A stretch of DNA of 64,000 nt from a virus. Shown piece after piece: positions 16,423 through 22,267 of this stretch (positions are counted from its first letter, which is position 1; every line of letters begins with the position of its first letter). A model generated the notes under the pieces. It saw nothing but the letters and a program-made list of their open reading frames with translations, was not told where the DNA came from and searched no databases. The stretch spans positions 62,001 through 126,000 of IMG/VR virus record IMGVR_UViG_3300032675_000001. The stretch is one strand, 5' to 3'. The position numbers were made by a program, and so were the translations under genes.

Positions 16423-16944
16423 TTAAATCGTCAGACCCAACATGTCAAGACCTTTTTTATGGAAACATTTGGTATTCTCAATCGCTTCTTCTGTACTCAA
16501 TGCGGCGAAACCCTTAGAATGCATTTCTTCATCCGGTAGAATTTTGGAAAACACCTCACGAATGTCTTCGTCAATCTCATTGTCTGCGGCCAATGCACGA
16601 ATGCGAACAAGACGCATTGCTTCGGCATGATGACCTGCTGCGGTTACTTCTTCAAAAGTCTGGACATTTCCTAGGATTTCACTCCAATAACGGTCATGTT
16701 CATATGTTGGGGTTGGCAGTTCAATGTTACGAGCGGCGAGAAGTTCTCCTACCCAGTCGCGGTGCTTAGCTTCATCAGAAGCAATCTTTTCCAAAAGTAC
16801 TTTGCCTTTTCCTTCTGTCGTTTTGGCGAGTGATTCAATTCGTTCTGCGGCAAGAGCTTCACCGATATATTGACGCTGCAACCAGTGATTAAGCTTTTCA
16901 GGAGATGCTTTTACCTCGTTGAGCCACTGTTCGGTAGTTTTCAT
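16423..16944 (-). CDS. Ferritin-like diiron protein (rubrerythrin/MiaE-type fold)
   Basis: I start this at 16944 (MKTTEQWLNEV), with an AGGAG site; a longer frame to 17007 would run into the tmRNA tag region. The 173-residue protein has a four-helix pattern with EALAAERIESL, SDEAKHRDWV (ExxH), HHAEAMRLVRI and PDEEMHSKGF (ExxH). Paired Glu and ExxH motifs are the ligands of ferritin-like diiron sites. The role could be oxygenase, peroxide reduction or iron handling. It directly follows the tmRNA on the same strand and may share its transcript. Confidence 0.8.
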   Translation of the reverse strand: MKTTEQWLNEVKASPEKLNHWLQRQYIGEALAAERIESLAKTTEGKGKVLLEKIASDEAKHRDWVGELLAARNIELPTPTYEHDRYWSEILGNVQTFEEVTAAGHHAEAMRLVRIRALAADNEIDEDIREVFSKILPDEEMHSKGFAALSTEEAIENTKCFHKKGLDMLGLTI

Positions 16945-16959
16945 GATTAATCTCCTATG

Positions 16960-17268
16960 TAAAGTGGCCCGTTCTGTTTCTAGGTGGAGCCGTACCCAGG
17001 AAATCATGCCGCTAGGGCAATATCCATAGTTGAGTTATCGTTTGCAGATAATTCTATTTAGTCTATAATGCGACTAACCAACCAGTCTACTCTCACCTTC
17101 AACTCGTAGTCGAATCCTAAATACGCCCCCATCAACTACTCTGAATCGCTGTGTTTCCGCCAGACAGCTTTTCACCCTTTATAGCGGCGGGTTATCAGAG
17201 TAGATGGTGGAGGCGAGGGGAGTCGCACCCCTGTCCTACGCAGCATTCAGTTTGTATCAACAACTGAT
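16960..17268 (-). ncRNA. ssrA: Circularly permuted (two-piece) tmRNA
   Basis: Read on the minus strand, the 3' half comes first. The T-arm lies at 17216-17232, the 3' acceptor strand CGCCTCC at 17209-17215 and an encoded discriminator plus CCA at 17205-17208. A spacer of about 74 bases follows, closed by a perfect 9-bp inverted repeat (CTACTCTGA / TCAGAGTAG). Then comes the 5' half, GGGGGCG (17124-17130), followed by TATTTAGGATTCGAC. The two acceptor strands pair over 7 bp with a G3-U70 wobble, the alanine identity mark. The tag frame at 17004-17045 reads ANDNSTMDIALAA then TGA, ending in the LAA-type degron. The outer ends are approximate. Permuted genes with ANDN tags are typical of Alphaproteobacteria. 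Confidence 0.93.
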
Positions 17269-17274
17269 AACTTA

Positions 17275-17303
17275 CTTATACACTATTCACAGAAACATGT
17301 CAA
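17275..17303 (-). promoter_or_regulatory. Sigma70-like promoter of the tmRNA gene
   Basis: TTGACA (17298-17303) and TATAAG (17275-17280) on the minus strand are 17 bases apart. The predicted start, near 17268, lies just before the first hairpin of the tmRNA acceptor piece. The -35 overlaps the end of the 63-residue gene upstream. Confidence 0.75.
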
Positions 17304-18960: not shown

Positions 18961-19734
18961 TCATTTGGTAGCGAGTCGAAGTCTTTCTTTGATAATTCCA
19001 TTGTTATTTTTCATTTCCTCTATGACTTCATGCTCCCAGAATCTCAAAACAGTAAATCCACATTTCCTCAAATATGCATCTTGTGATTTGTCTAAGTTCA
19101 TTCTTTTTTGCTGCCTAAGGTCCGGAATTCCATTTTTCAATTTTGATGGATGTCCGTGCCAGTAATCACCATCCCATTGAATGATGATTTTTTTATCCGG
19201 TATTAGAACGTCAACTGATATTTTGTCTGCTATTAGTATTTGTTCTTCAAATATAATATCCTCGTTCAATAATATCTGCCTTCCGAGTAACTCTAATTTG
19301 TTTGGTCCTTTTTTTCTATTCTGTGCCATGTTTCCATTAGTAGATGCTCTCCTGATCCATTCTTCATCTGTATTTCTGCATTCTATGGTGCAGTAAGTTG
19401 GGTTATTATCTTTCAGTCGGCTTTTACTCCAATAGAAAGTATTATGACACATTTTACATTCAAATGCAACTTTATTTTTTGCCTGAAAATCATTAGCACA
19501 CTTATGACTGCAGAAATGATTAGCATGTGCCTCTAATGTCGCCAGACTCCTATACACTTGATTACCACACATAGCACATTCAACGATTCGTCCAGTTTTT
19601 CTTTGTGGTTTAGGGCTGGTCCTGCTACAATATGCACTGCAATATTGCCTATTTGCTGGCATATCTGCAGTATGAGGTTTTCCGCATCCCTTACATATTA
19701 TCGTTCTCGTTTTATATTTGTTTTTTCTGTACAT
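18961..19734 (-). CDS. VSR-like (EDxHD/DUF559-type) homing endonuclease with zinc fingers
   Basis: This 257-residue protein has three or four N-terminal Cys4-type knuckles (CKGCGK...YCSAYC; CAMCGNQ...HFCSHKC; CKMCHN...YCTIEC). The C-terminal half reads ISVDVLIPDKKIIIQWDGDYWHGHP, then KSQDAYLRKCGFTVLRFWEHEV. That is the core of very-short-patch-repair-like endonucleases found in phage homing genes. It splits the methyltransferase coding sequence: its start overlaps the 5' piece by 23 bases and its stop lies 76 bases before the 3' piece. Only about 130 bases flank it, too few for a group I intron, so it looks free-standing. Confidence 0.82.
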   Translation of the reverse strand: MYRKNKYKTRTIICKGCGKPHTADMPANRQYCSAYCSRTSPKPQRKTGRIVECAMCGNQVYRSLATLEAHANHFCSHKCANDFQAKNKVAFECKMCHNTFYWSKSRLKDNNPTYCTIECRNTDEEWIRRASTNGNMAQNRKKGPNKLELLGRQILLNEDIIFEEQILIADKISVDVLIPDKKIIIQWDGDYWHGHPSKLKNGIPDLRQQKRMNLDKSQDAYLRKCGFTVLRFWEHEVIEEMKNNNGIIKERLRLATK

Positions 19735-22267
19735 TTAATACTCCATTACTTTCGTTTGAAGTATTTATATGTTTTTTGATTTTTTCAATAATATCTGGTG
19801 GCGTATTTTCATCAATCAGATAACGCGAAACTTTATCCAATCCGCTGTTACGATCTGATCTGCTGGCTTTAGCAGCATAATACATTCTCTGAACATTCTC
19901 ATAATCCAGTGTGTCTTCCTCTGTGAATTCACAAGACTTAAAAAATCTTGCTGCTGATCCTGTGTCGCCTCGTTTCGCTGATGGAACTCTTTGATATTCA
20001 CCATAACAGTTGGTATTATCATCTCCTGTATGTGATGGTTCTGTTCCCTTTACATCGCCTTGTTGACCCTTACTTTCAGGAAACAATGCGACAACTTCAT
20101 CACTGCCATCATGAATGATATTAGCGGGGAATCTTCCTTTTAGTTCTGGTCGGTCAAACTCAGTTCTAGGTCTATGATCAGATTTTCTATAGTAACAGTT
20201 TGTGCAAATATCTTGATCTTCTTCTACTGGATTTAGTGTATCAGGAGCATAATCATCGCATCCCATATATTCCGAAGAGCCAGCAAGTGATCCTGACTTC
20301 GCCGTGCATTTTCCTTGCGGCGTTGCACTTAGCTTATCCTCTTCCGACATATAATCAACCCGACAATCATCAATATTGATTCCACCAGTTCCATGCTTTA
20401 GAACATTCTTCGCTACAGTCTTTTCAGATAGTGGCTTCCTAGCAACGCAAATAGGCTCCCACGCTGGCTTCAGTGCCGTGCCCCAGCCATCCCATTGTTT
20501 TGCTTCTTCTGTTGCTGGTGCAGTAACGTCCCAAGTTTCATAAACAGTTGTTCCACCAACAGTTGGCAATGCGGATTTTCCACTAGTGCTTCTAGCTTTA
20601 ATCTGCTGACCAATTACCCTTCGTTCAATATTATTATAAATGCCGGTCAATCTTTCAGAAGTTTCTTCATCCGGATTGAGCACTTCCTTCATGCGTTTCC
20701 ATTTTTCCTGTGGTGGCAACAAATTAACCCATGGGTCAAACTTTTTTCCATCTGCTGGTAGTGTTAGATAGTTACTTGCTCTGAACCCACACTCAGTGTC
20801 AATCTGCTTTCGCGTTTTCCCACTTTTTTTAAATATATTAGTCAGGATATTCTTTAGTTCAATTACTTCTTCATCATCGGCAGGATTTTCCATATGCTTA
20901 TCAATAGCCTTACCGATGTTCATAGACTTAGGAAAGCCAGAGTTTCCAGTAGTGAATGCTTTACCATCCCTTACTGCGACGAATGCGCCAGTAGGAACCT
21001 TAACACACCAAATCTTACCTTCATATTCAATCGGAGTTACAGTTGCCAGAGTGGTTTTATGTCCTTTCCAGCCTCGTATAACTTGTGATCCGAGTTGTTG
21101 GCAAATAACATCAGATTCTCCGCCCGATTGTCCAATGGATCGTGGTTTATATGATGCACTACTTCCGTGCGAGTAAGCATTCTGTTTAAATGCTTCGCTA
21201 CTATTAGACGGTGCTCCATGACATACCCGTCTCTCCTCGCCATAGGCAGGAAGTCCACTGGACAACGAACATACTTCGCTCCTTTGTAGTTTCCATGTGA
21301 GCGACGGTATGTTACTCCACCCTTCCAAGCAGGGTTGGTTTCTCCAGTCATGCGGTCCACCAAATCTTGTTCCGACTTCTCGGACCAGTTGGCTCTCCCC
21401 TTGTGTGCGTGAGCTTTCCATTCTATTCCCCGCAAAACTCCGTTGCATGTTTTTGAACACACAGGAGTTTTCACTCGTTGTAAATGTTTTATATTTCTGT
21501 AGAACGTTATCCCACATACTTGACAAGTATGTTGTTGTTTTCCAATATGTTCGTTTATAGGTGGCGATCCAGTATTGGAACGACCTATTGACTTGTTGGA
21601 ACATTGTTTGCTGCAAGTTTTGTTTCTTATAGCCTGTTCTTTGGTATGAGTCTGATAAGGATTGTTGCAAACCAGACAGGTTTTCCAAAAAGGGTATATT
21701 CTCTTGCGAACTAAGTTCTTCTGCAAAAGCGAATATTTCTCTTCCGCCTCGTTCAACAATGCAACGATGGTTTCGGCTGACGATTTGGTCTGTATGATCA
21801 GATTGTATTCTGTAAGCGGTATCCTTGATGTCATATTCATAAACTTCCTCAACTGGCATATAACTATATGTTTGAGTATATTTATCATAACACAAGACTA
21901 AATCGTTTGGTTTTATTGCTGTGTATGGTTTTATGCCGTTTGGCGTCACAATCTCTGTGTCATCAGATAGACAGCCATAGACCCACCCAATCTGATCGCG
22001 AATATCAAATCCAGCGTCTTCAATCGCTACCACCATTCTATGATATGTGCGAGTACCAGAGAATGCCAACAGGTGTCCGCCTGGCTTCAATACACGCATC
22101 ACCTCTGACCACATCTCAACACTATATGCGATGCCAGAACTGTCCCACGACTTACCCATGAAACCAAGTTCATATGGCGGATCAGTTACCACAGAATCAA
22201 CAGAGTTTTCTTCCATGGTTTTTAATACGTCAACACAGTTGCCGTTATGTAATACAAAGCTACTCAT
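19712..22267 (-). CDS. DNA methyltransferase N-terminal piece with embedded intein
   Basis: This is an 851-residue precursor. Residues 1-98 hold SVVTDPPYELGFMGKSWD (catalytic motif IV, DPPY), VLKPGGHLLAF and DQIGWVYG. Residues 99-442 are an intein. The extein resumes SGFPKSMNIGKAIDKH and continues to AKASRSDRNSGLD, the usual run toward the C-terminal motif I block. That last block is absent here and lies at 18651-18884. The extein also has CTNCYYRKSDH, a possible zinc site. It is an N4/N6-type amino-methyltransferase (beta-class motif order) that would need splicing and assembly with the C-terminal piece to be active. A sigma70-like promoter is at 22296-22324. Confidence 0.88.
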   Translation of the reverse strand: MSSFVLHNGNCVDVLKTMEENSVDSVVTDPPYELGFMGKSWDSSGIAYSVEMWSEVMRVLKPGGHLLAFSGTRTYHRMVVAIEDAGFDIRDQIGWVYGCLSDDTEIVTPNGIKPYTAIKPNDLVLCYDKYTQTYSYMPVEEVYEYDIKDTAYRIQSDHTDQIVSRNHRCIVERGGREIFAFAEELSSQENIPFLENLSGLQQSLSDSYQRTGYKKQNLQQTMFQQVNRSFQYWIATYKRTYWKTTTYLSSMWDNVLQKYKTFTTSENSCVFKNMQRSFAGNRMESSRTQGESQLVREVGTRFGGPHDWRNQPCLEGWSNIPSLTWKLQRSEVCSLSSGLPAYGEERRVCHGAPSNSSEAFKQNAYSHGSSASYKPRSIGQSGGESDVICQQLGSQVIRGWKGHKTTLATVTPIEYEGKIWCVKVPTGAFVAVRDGKAFTTGNSGFPKSMNIGKAIDKHMENPADDEEVIELKNILTNIFKKSGKTRKQIDTECGFRASNYLTLPADGKKFDPWVNLLPPQEKWKRMKEVLNPDEETSERLTGIYNNIERRVIGQQIKARSTSGKSALPTVGGTTVYETWDVTAPATEEAKQWDGWGTALKPAWEPICVARKPLSEKTVAKNVLKHGTGGINIDDCRVDYMSEEDKLSATPQGKCTAKSGSLAGSSEYMGCDDYAPDTLNPVEEDQDICTNCYYRKSDHRPRTEFDRPELKGRFPANIIHDGSDEVVALFPESKGQQGDVKGTEPSHTGDDNTNCYGEYQRVPSAKRGDTGSAARFFKSCEFTEEDTLDYENVQRMYYAAKASRSDRNSGLDKVSRYLIDENTPPDIIEKIKKHINTSNESNGVLNVQKKQI
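20942..21973 (-). mobile_element. Intein within the DNA methyltransferase
   Basis: The intein covers residues 99-442. It starts CLSDDTEIVTPNG (block A, Cys1 nucleophile) and has DQIVSRNHRCIV (block B-like). It ends with YEGKIWCVKV (block F) and FVAVRDGKAFTTGN, then Ser of the C-extein (block G). The penultimate residue is Gly instead of His. The exteins join as GWVYG-SGFPKS, a conserved methyltransferase run, which fixes both borders. The middle, about 220 residues, has no endonuclease motif in this frame; instead an HNH gene occupies the same DNA in another frame. Confidence 0.88.
21037..21888 (-). CDS. HNH endonuclease nested out of frame inside the intein
   Basis: This open frame is shifted one base from the intein frame. 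Real coding seems to begin after about residue 55 (near 21726, where a TTG is available), since the first part matches DNA of the intein N-terminal domain. It then has two Cys clusters (CLVCNNPY...CSKQC; CQVCGITFY...CSKTC), NPAWKGGVTYR and the HNH core (MEHRLIVAKHL, VVHHINHDPLDNRAENLMLF). It ends 32 residues before the intein C-terminus. The HNH motif makes this frame the clearly protein-like one in this stretch, while the intein frame stays open with no recognisable domain. Confidence 0.8.
   Translation of the reverse strand: MINILKHIVICQLRKFMNMTSRIPLTEYNLIIQTKSSAETIVALLNEAEEKYSLLQKNLVRKRIYPFWKTCLVCNNPYQTHTKEQAIRNKTCSKQCSNKSIGRSNTGSPPINEHIGKQQHTCQVCGITFYRNIKHLQRVKTPVCSKTCNGVLRGIEWKAHAHKGRANWSEKSEQDLVDRMTGETNPAWKGGVTYRRSHGNYKGAKYVRCPVDFLPMARRDGYVMEHRLIVAKHLNRMLTRTEVVHHINHDPLDNRAENLMLFANNSDHKLYEAGKDIKPLWQL

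Follow-up and report, generated by a model that had tools for sequence, protein, structure and literature searches.

Stalled ribosomes are released by tmRNA, which also adds a tag to the incomplete proteins on them. In two-piece tmRNAs of the alpha type, RNase P cuts the precursor before G1 and the other piece is trimmed to its CCA end; the spacer between them is lost and the two pieces base-pair with each other. Genes for two-piece tmRNAs have already been published for phage Melnitz and other phages, and 53 were counted in 18,146 phage genomes, 50 of the 53 being marine or aquatic (PMC9004378). A tmRNA was also reported for the Sinorhizobium jumbo phage AP-J-162 (PMC11242549). A preliminary description of the locus studied here called permuted tmRNAs rare in phages, which agrees with the above count in cultured collections. 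In IMG/VR, on the other hand, each of two scans by tag pattern returned at least about 120 contigs, which together yielded more than 100 distinct phage permuted tmRNAs. Our locus, in a window of 64,000 nucleotides (the whole stretch analysed) from an IMG/VR virus record of 360,683 bases, is a well-supported addition to this group. In our view (probability about 0.93), a jumbo tailed phage here carries a complete permuted tmRNA gene of the two-piece alpha type that is very probably functional.

Anatomy and conservation of the permuted tmRNA gene

A complete, circularly permuted gene for tmRNA lies, together with its promoter, on the minus strand of the window at 17303-16963, with the tmRNA proper at 17268-16963. 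ARAGORN reported a permuted tmRNA (tmRNA*) with the tag ANDNSTMDIALAA. The Rfam search of the 64-kb window matched RF04321 (tmRNA_permuted) at 17268-17004 with 85.5 bits (E 5.7e-15) and RF01849 (alpha_tmRNA) at 17307-16963 with 65.8 bits (E 8.6e-16), exceeding the Rfam cut-offs of 47 and 50 bits, respectively. The second match is the outcome of the alpha-tmRNA covariance-model search that the preliminary description had proposed as a check. RF01850 and RF01851, for the beta and cyanobacterial permuted tmRNAs, were both absent from the Rfam list of the window, from which weaker overlapping matches of the same clan were dropped, and the alpha model is therefore the best fit.

The gene begins with the 3' (acceptor) piece (17205..17268, its start taken from the RF04321 match), which contains the P2 3' strand, the T-arm and the acceptor 3' strand and is closed by an encoded CCA (17207-17205). 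It is followed by an intervening spacer of 74 nt (17131..17204) without an open frame, which is closed by a 9-bp stem (CTACTCTGA/TCAGAGTAG) and ends in TGAT before G1, and then by the 5' half. This order of 3' acceptor half, spacer and 5' half is the permuted arrangement. The acceptor 5' strand GGGGGCG (17124..17130, with G1 at 17130), placed by Rfam and covariation, forms seven pairs with CGCCTCC, G3-U70 among them. Both pieces are further linked by a short P2 helix of 5 bp between CTACG (17105..17109) and CGTAG (17240-17236), which covaries in relatives. Ahead of the tag, the sequence seems to form a simple hairpin instead of a full first pseudoknot. The tag reading frame delimited by ARAGORN (17004..17045) runs from GCA to TGA and is followed by an alpha-type terminal pseudoknot (16999 to about 16965) with an S1 core of GGGT/ACCT, S2 of GGCTC/GGGCC and an ACAGAA loop, in accordance with RF01849 and the covariation of S2. 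The acceptor halves, CCA, spacer closed by 9 bp, G3-U70 pair and ANDN-type tag of the preliminary description were thus all located on the minus strand, and to these we add the terminal pseudoknot and P2, which it had lacked. When the window spacer was searched against Rfam with E up to 5, no self-cleaving ribozyme or other RNA besides the tmRNA itself was found, with the single exception of a chance-level tRNA-like match located in the acceptor half.

Upstream of the tmRNA on the same strand, a -35 element TTGACA (17298..17303) and a -10 element TATAAG (17275..17280) are separated by 17 nt from TTGACA to TATAA, and both the elements and their spacing are kept in all seven clade sequences compared, including the window. 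The gene hence has its own sigma70-like promoter as had been claimed, and transcription is predicted to start near 17268 from the position of the -10 element. A generic promoter scan of the single sequence did not flag this promoter, whose TATAAG is without the final T, so that the case for it is made by conservation.

Downstream of the tmRNA and outside it, a rubrerythrin/ferritin-like gene on the minus strand (16423..16944; PF02915, E 2e-09) has its own ribosome-binding site. Elsewhere in the window, a DNA methyltransferase frame of 851 aa (19712-22267, minus strand) has two ends (1-115, 608-651) that match methylases, and the part separating them holds an intein-like start (CLSDDTEIVTPNG); the frame probably contains an intein. 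The region 28298-50661 carries a cluster of twitch-type radical SAM genes, a Nol-like carbamoyltransferase, a UDP-glucose dehydrogenase and other sugar genes, which are unusual cargo for a phage. The contig also has 43 tRNA matches above cut-off (G000:C1:216380-255638), 42 of them within 230-256 kb, and the tmRNA is distant from them, at 79 kb.

Covariation was evaluated on seven sequences in a plain sequence alignment with the spacers removed, where 95.9% of the helix cells were paired. Double (compensatory) changes occupied 26 cells against a shuffled mean of 8.3, and the covariation score was 0.558 against 0.160 in shuffles; 0 of 500 shuffles reached either value, counts that are not to be read as probabilities, since the aligned sequences are few and related to one another. 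When the structure was slid by one column, the score did not exceed 0.161. The compensatory changes are seen in the T-stem, the acceptor and the terminal pseudoknot, in which four of the five S2 pairs covary. G3-U70 is identical in all seven sequences, and acceptor pairs 4 to 6 vary with compensation. P2 is CTACG/CGTAG in the window, TTGTC/GACAA in L127, L131 and L161 and TTTATGTT/AACATAAA in L158, and is reduced to three pairs in L145. The two acceptor strands, whose pairing had been named beforehand as a test, do pair, with compensatory changes among the relatives; the pairing counts of the finder used for collecting the loci are not independent evidence, since it demands acceptor pairing.

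Turnover and putative coding content of the spacer

Close relatives, whose neighbour protein is as much as 98% identical, carry unrelated sequence in place of the 74-nt spacer, and their comparison shows that no other part of the gene is as mobile. In L127-L129, at 98% identity of the neighbour protein, the spacer has 208 nt with a 61-codon frame; it is 110 nt in L161, only 9 nt in L130 and tRNA-like in L145 and L131. An HNH-type gene, just below the Pfam cut-off, adjoins the tmRNA in L130. By eye, L158 and L161 have homing-nuclease-like frames near the tmRNA, and an insertion in the tag region of L144 (3444-4680) contains a GIY-YIG-like frame of 256 codons on the minus strand, all without a Pfam match. 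The tag-region insertions of L144 and L130 (8586-8980) bring their own tag end, stop codon and possible pseudoknot, and the old tag end and terminal pseudoknot persist downstream of them.

For a wider view, we surveyed 151 viral permuted tmRNAs with spacers shorter than 700 nt from all loci fetched. After removal of redundancy, the median spacer was 87.5 nt in 86 viral clusters versus 29 nt in 15 bacterial clusters. A closing stem of at least 8 bp appeared to be a mark of phages in the redundant data (104/131 viral versus 5/45 bacterial), and this shrank to 57/76 versus 3/7 non-redundant clusters; as only these seven bacterial clusters were long enough, the stem is not callable phage-specific and we keep the size difference alone.

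Among 64 viral spacers at least 90 nt long, two of which (807 and 888 nt) are doubtful assignments, ATG frames were longer than in shuffles in 13 at p<0.01 and in 21 at p<=0.05. The two, in L017 and L362, are probable false pairings (L017 otherwise has 79 nt), and the Rfam placement contradicts a very long spacer in L114. A family of proteins of 38-44 residues, each with one likely membrane span (MKNPLVKKISVAMFKLYILWSICADVILISGIIALLLGYGKISF in L116 is an example), is encoded in seven spacers, and Rfam confirms the tmRNA around all seven (98.8-123.5 bits). The pooled pN of this family was 0.20 against a pS of 0.63, as is characteristic of translated genes. The spacer of L044 encodes an HNH nuclease (phrog_2255, E 2e-25) within a tmRNA match of 59.4 bits that is truncated by the end of the locus. 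Frames in the spacers of L021 and L088 (MVICSCRDIRDSQYTN...CCGTC), which extend into the 5' acceptor half, resemble by eye a small iron-sulphur (Bfd-like) protein. Two of the spacer proteins were queried against cultured phages by tblastn and had no match. The 2025 tmRNA database paper, as far as its accessible part goes, gives one case of a tRNA-Ala and one of a repeat within spacers, without mention of a protein gene (PMC11915505). Published reports of spacer reading frames were not found in the searchable literature, outside which most subscription journals lie.

On balance, we favour the idea that the spacer of phage permuted tmRNAs is expressed from the promoter of the tmRNA, is excised by tRNA-processing enzymes and acts as a slot for exchangeable cargo, and that a sizeable minority of the spacers hold a genuine small protein gene, so that a single transcript would be a message for a protein and also the source of a ribosome-rescue RNA. 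The conserved protein with a single membrane span, the HNH nuclease and a short basic protein in the relatives of the window seem to be examples, the frames being putatively translated. If they are, a gene for a structural RNA doubles as a protein gene, and excision and translation compete on one transcript. This finding concerns the family and not the window copy, as the spacer of the latter has no frame. A further step would be that phages retain the locus chiefly because of its spacer, as a slot ferrying small genes, tRNA-like RNAs and homing nucleases among phages, as might be read from the unrelated spacers of close relatives, the 13 of 64 long spacers with longer-than-chance frames and the HNH gene in L044. 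We regard this as unlikely, since the window's own spacer is frameless and L130 keeps its tmRNA with a 9-nt spacer, which means that cargo is not required.

Proposed ribosome rescue and the tag peptide

For a functional two-piece tmRNA, the processing, charging and ribosome rescue that we infer would proceed as follows. A single precursor made from the sigma70-like promoter would be cleaved by host RNase P before G1 (17130), and 3' processing would leave the CCA end (17205), with the 74-nt spacer discarded and the two pieces kept joined by the acceptor stem and P2. Host alanyl-tRNA synthetase would charge the RNA with alanine via G3-U70, and stalled ribosomes would be rescued with host SmpB and EF-Tu, adding a tag of A + ANDNSTMDIALAA that ends in the usual ALAA degron. 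A phage-encoded SmpB was considered and rejected; none was detectable in the 360-kb phage contig, so function would depend on SmpB of the host, which we assume. The likely benefit to the phage would be that ribosomes are kept cycling at a time when phage takeover and mRNA decay yield many broken mRNAs.

The tag of the window starts with ANDN and ends with ALAA, its frame opening at the resume codon and closing in the hydrophobic degron. Five base differences separate this frame from that of L127, all silent, with no change of amino acid. In a set of 96 distinct viral tags, 93 start with ANDN and 67 end with ALAA, the commonest ending. The same tag motif is carried by 10 IMG/VR contigs, and in those examined the surroundings of the gene are closely related. 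A search of 84,980 bacterial and archaeal species, each represented by one genome, gave no tag with the STMDI middle; thus, the STMDI-type tag is, as far as searched, private to these phages, and naming the host by an identical bacterial tag was dropped. The preliminary description remarked that the tag differs from the usual ones by MDI in the middle: the middle is indeed unusual, but the ends are ordinary and the middle is variable everywhere. Its further idea that phage-tagged proteins might meet different proteases is unsupported, because the ANDN front and the ALAA end are kept and only the variable middle differs.

Alternatively, the phage RNA may be a decoy, in competition with the host's tmRNA and SmpB, which lowers the tagging of phage proteins without performing normal rescue. 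For the tmRNA of Lacusarx, the authors of the genome proposed a role in counteracting host tagging (PMC5648845), and a tag-less form from phage DS6A inhibits host tmRNA in E. coli according to a work cited in PMC11915505. However, a decoy would not need an intact tag frame, a normal ALAA degron and changes that are silent only, all of which are seen here, and we think it quite improbable for this gene.

Origin, host and known permuted tmRNAs

A tree was made from spacer-free cores of viral and bacterial loci. The window groups with other phages having STMD tags (support 0.98), inside a group of 127 leaves that are all viral with zero bacterial leaves (node support 0.883). A recent capture of the tmRNA from one of the sampled bacteria is therefore rejected; these bacteria were chosen by tag pattern and are rich in rhizobia, so the tree shows distance from the sampled bacteria and not from all. 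That the gene is a host-derived pseudogene or chance passenger without selection, as could follow from the argument that excising phages can take host ssrA fragments (PMC9004378), is very improbable in view of its completeness, covarying helices, promoter conserved in seven sequences, silent-only tag changes and branch without a bacterial member in this sample.

An alphaproteobacterial host had been suggested from the tmRNA type, and this suggestion is weak. Melnitz has an alpha-type tmRNA and yet infects a gammaproteobacterium (PMC9004378), so that the tmRNA type does not fix the host, and the closest terminases are split between Pseudomonas phages (50.0%) and a Sinorhizobium phage (49.8%). 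Our tree indicates that viral two-piece tmRNAs are a lineage for the most part distinct from those of the bacteria sampled, which makes the tmRNA type unfit for assigning hosts.

Permuted tmRNAs are also present in known phages without being annotated. The jumbo phage Phosso has one at PV764938.1 349596-350198 (L403 2103-1501; 113.3 bits) with the tag ANDNVSTKVALAA, unannotated in its record. By eye, the arms of its spacer hairpins could pair with the acceptor halves, too. Those of the Caulobacter phages phiCbK (NC_019405.1; L002 1469-1787) and CcrBL9 (MH588546.1; L003 1476-1781) match RF04321 with 71-73 bits and are likewise unannotated; the phiCbK stretch has in addition a GOLLD RNA match of 165 bits around a tRNA-Gly. 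ARAGORN misses the tmRNAs of Phosso and L127-L129, which Rfam finds; this common tool thus overlooks tmRNAs with long spacers.

Compared with the two-piece ssrA of Melnitz and the pelagimyophages (PMC9004378), the window gene is likewise phage-encoded, alpha-like and two-piece, but it belongs to another phage lineage and has no match to the glutamine riboswitch in Rfam. With the Sinorhizobium phage Phosso, the jumbo relative by terminase (49.8%), it shares a permuted alpha-type tmRNA, but in Phosso long hairpins make up a spacer of about 390 nt, and the gene escapes ARAGORN. From the alphaproteobacterial permuted tmRNA (RF01849, RF04321) it differs in its spacer, 74 nt versus the bacterial cluster median of 29 nt, and in the STMDI tag, absent from the one genome each of 84,980 species, but it shares the gene order, the tRNA-like domain with G3-U70, the encoded CCA, the spacer ending in TGAT, the ANDN tag and the terminal pseudoknot with ACAGAA.
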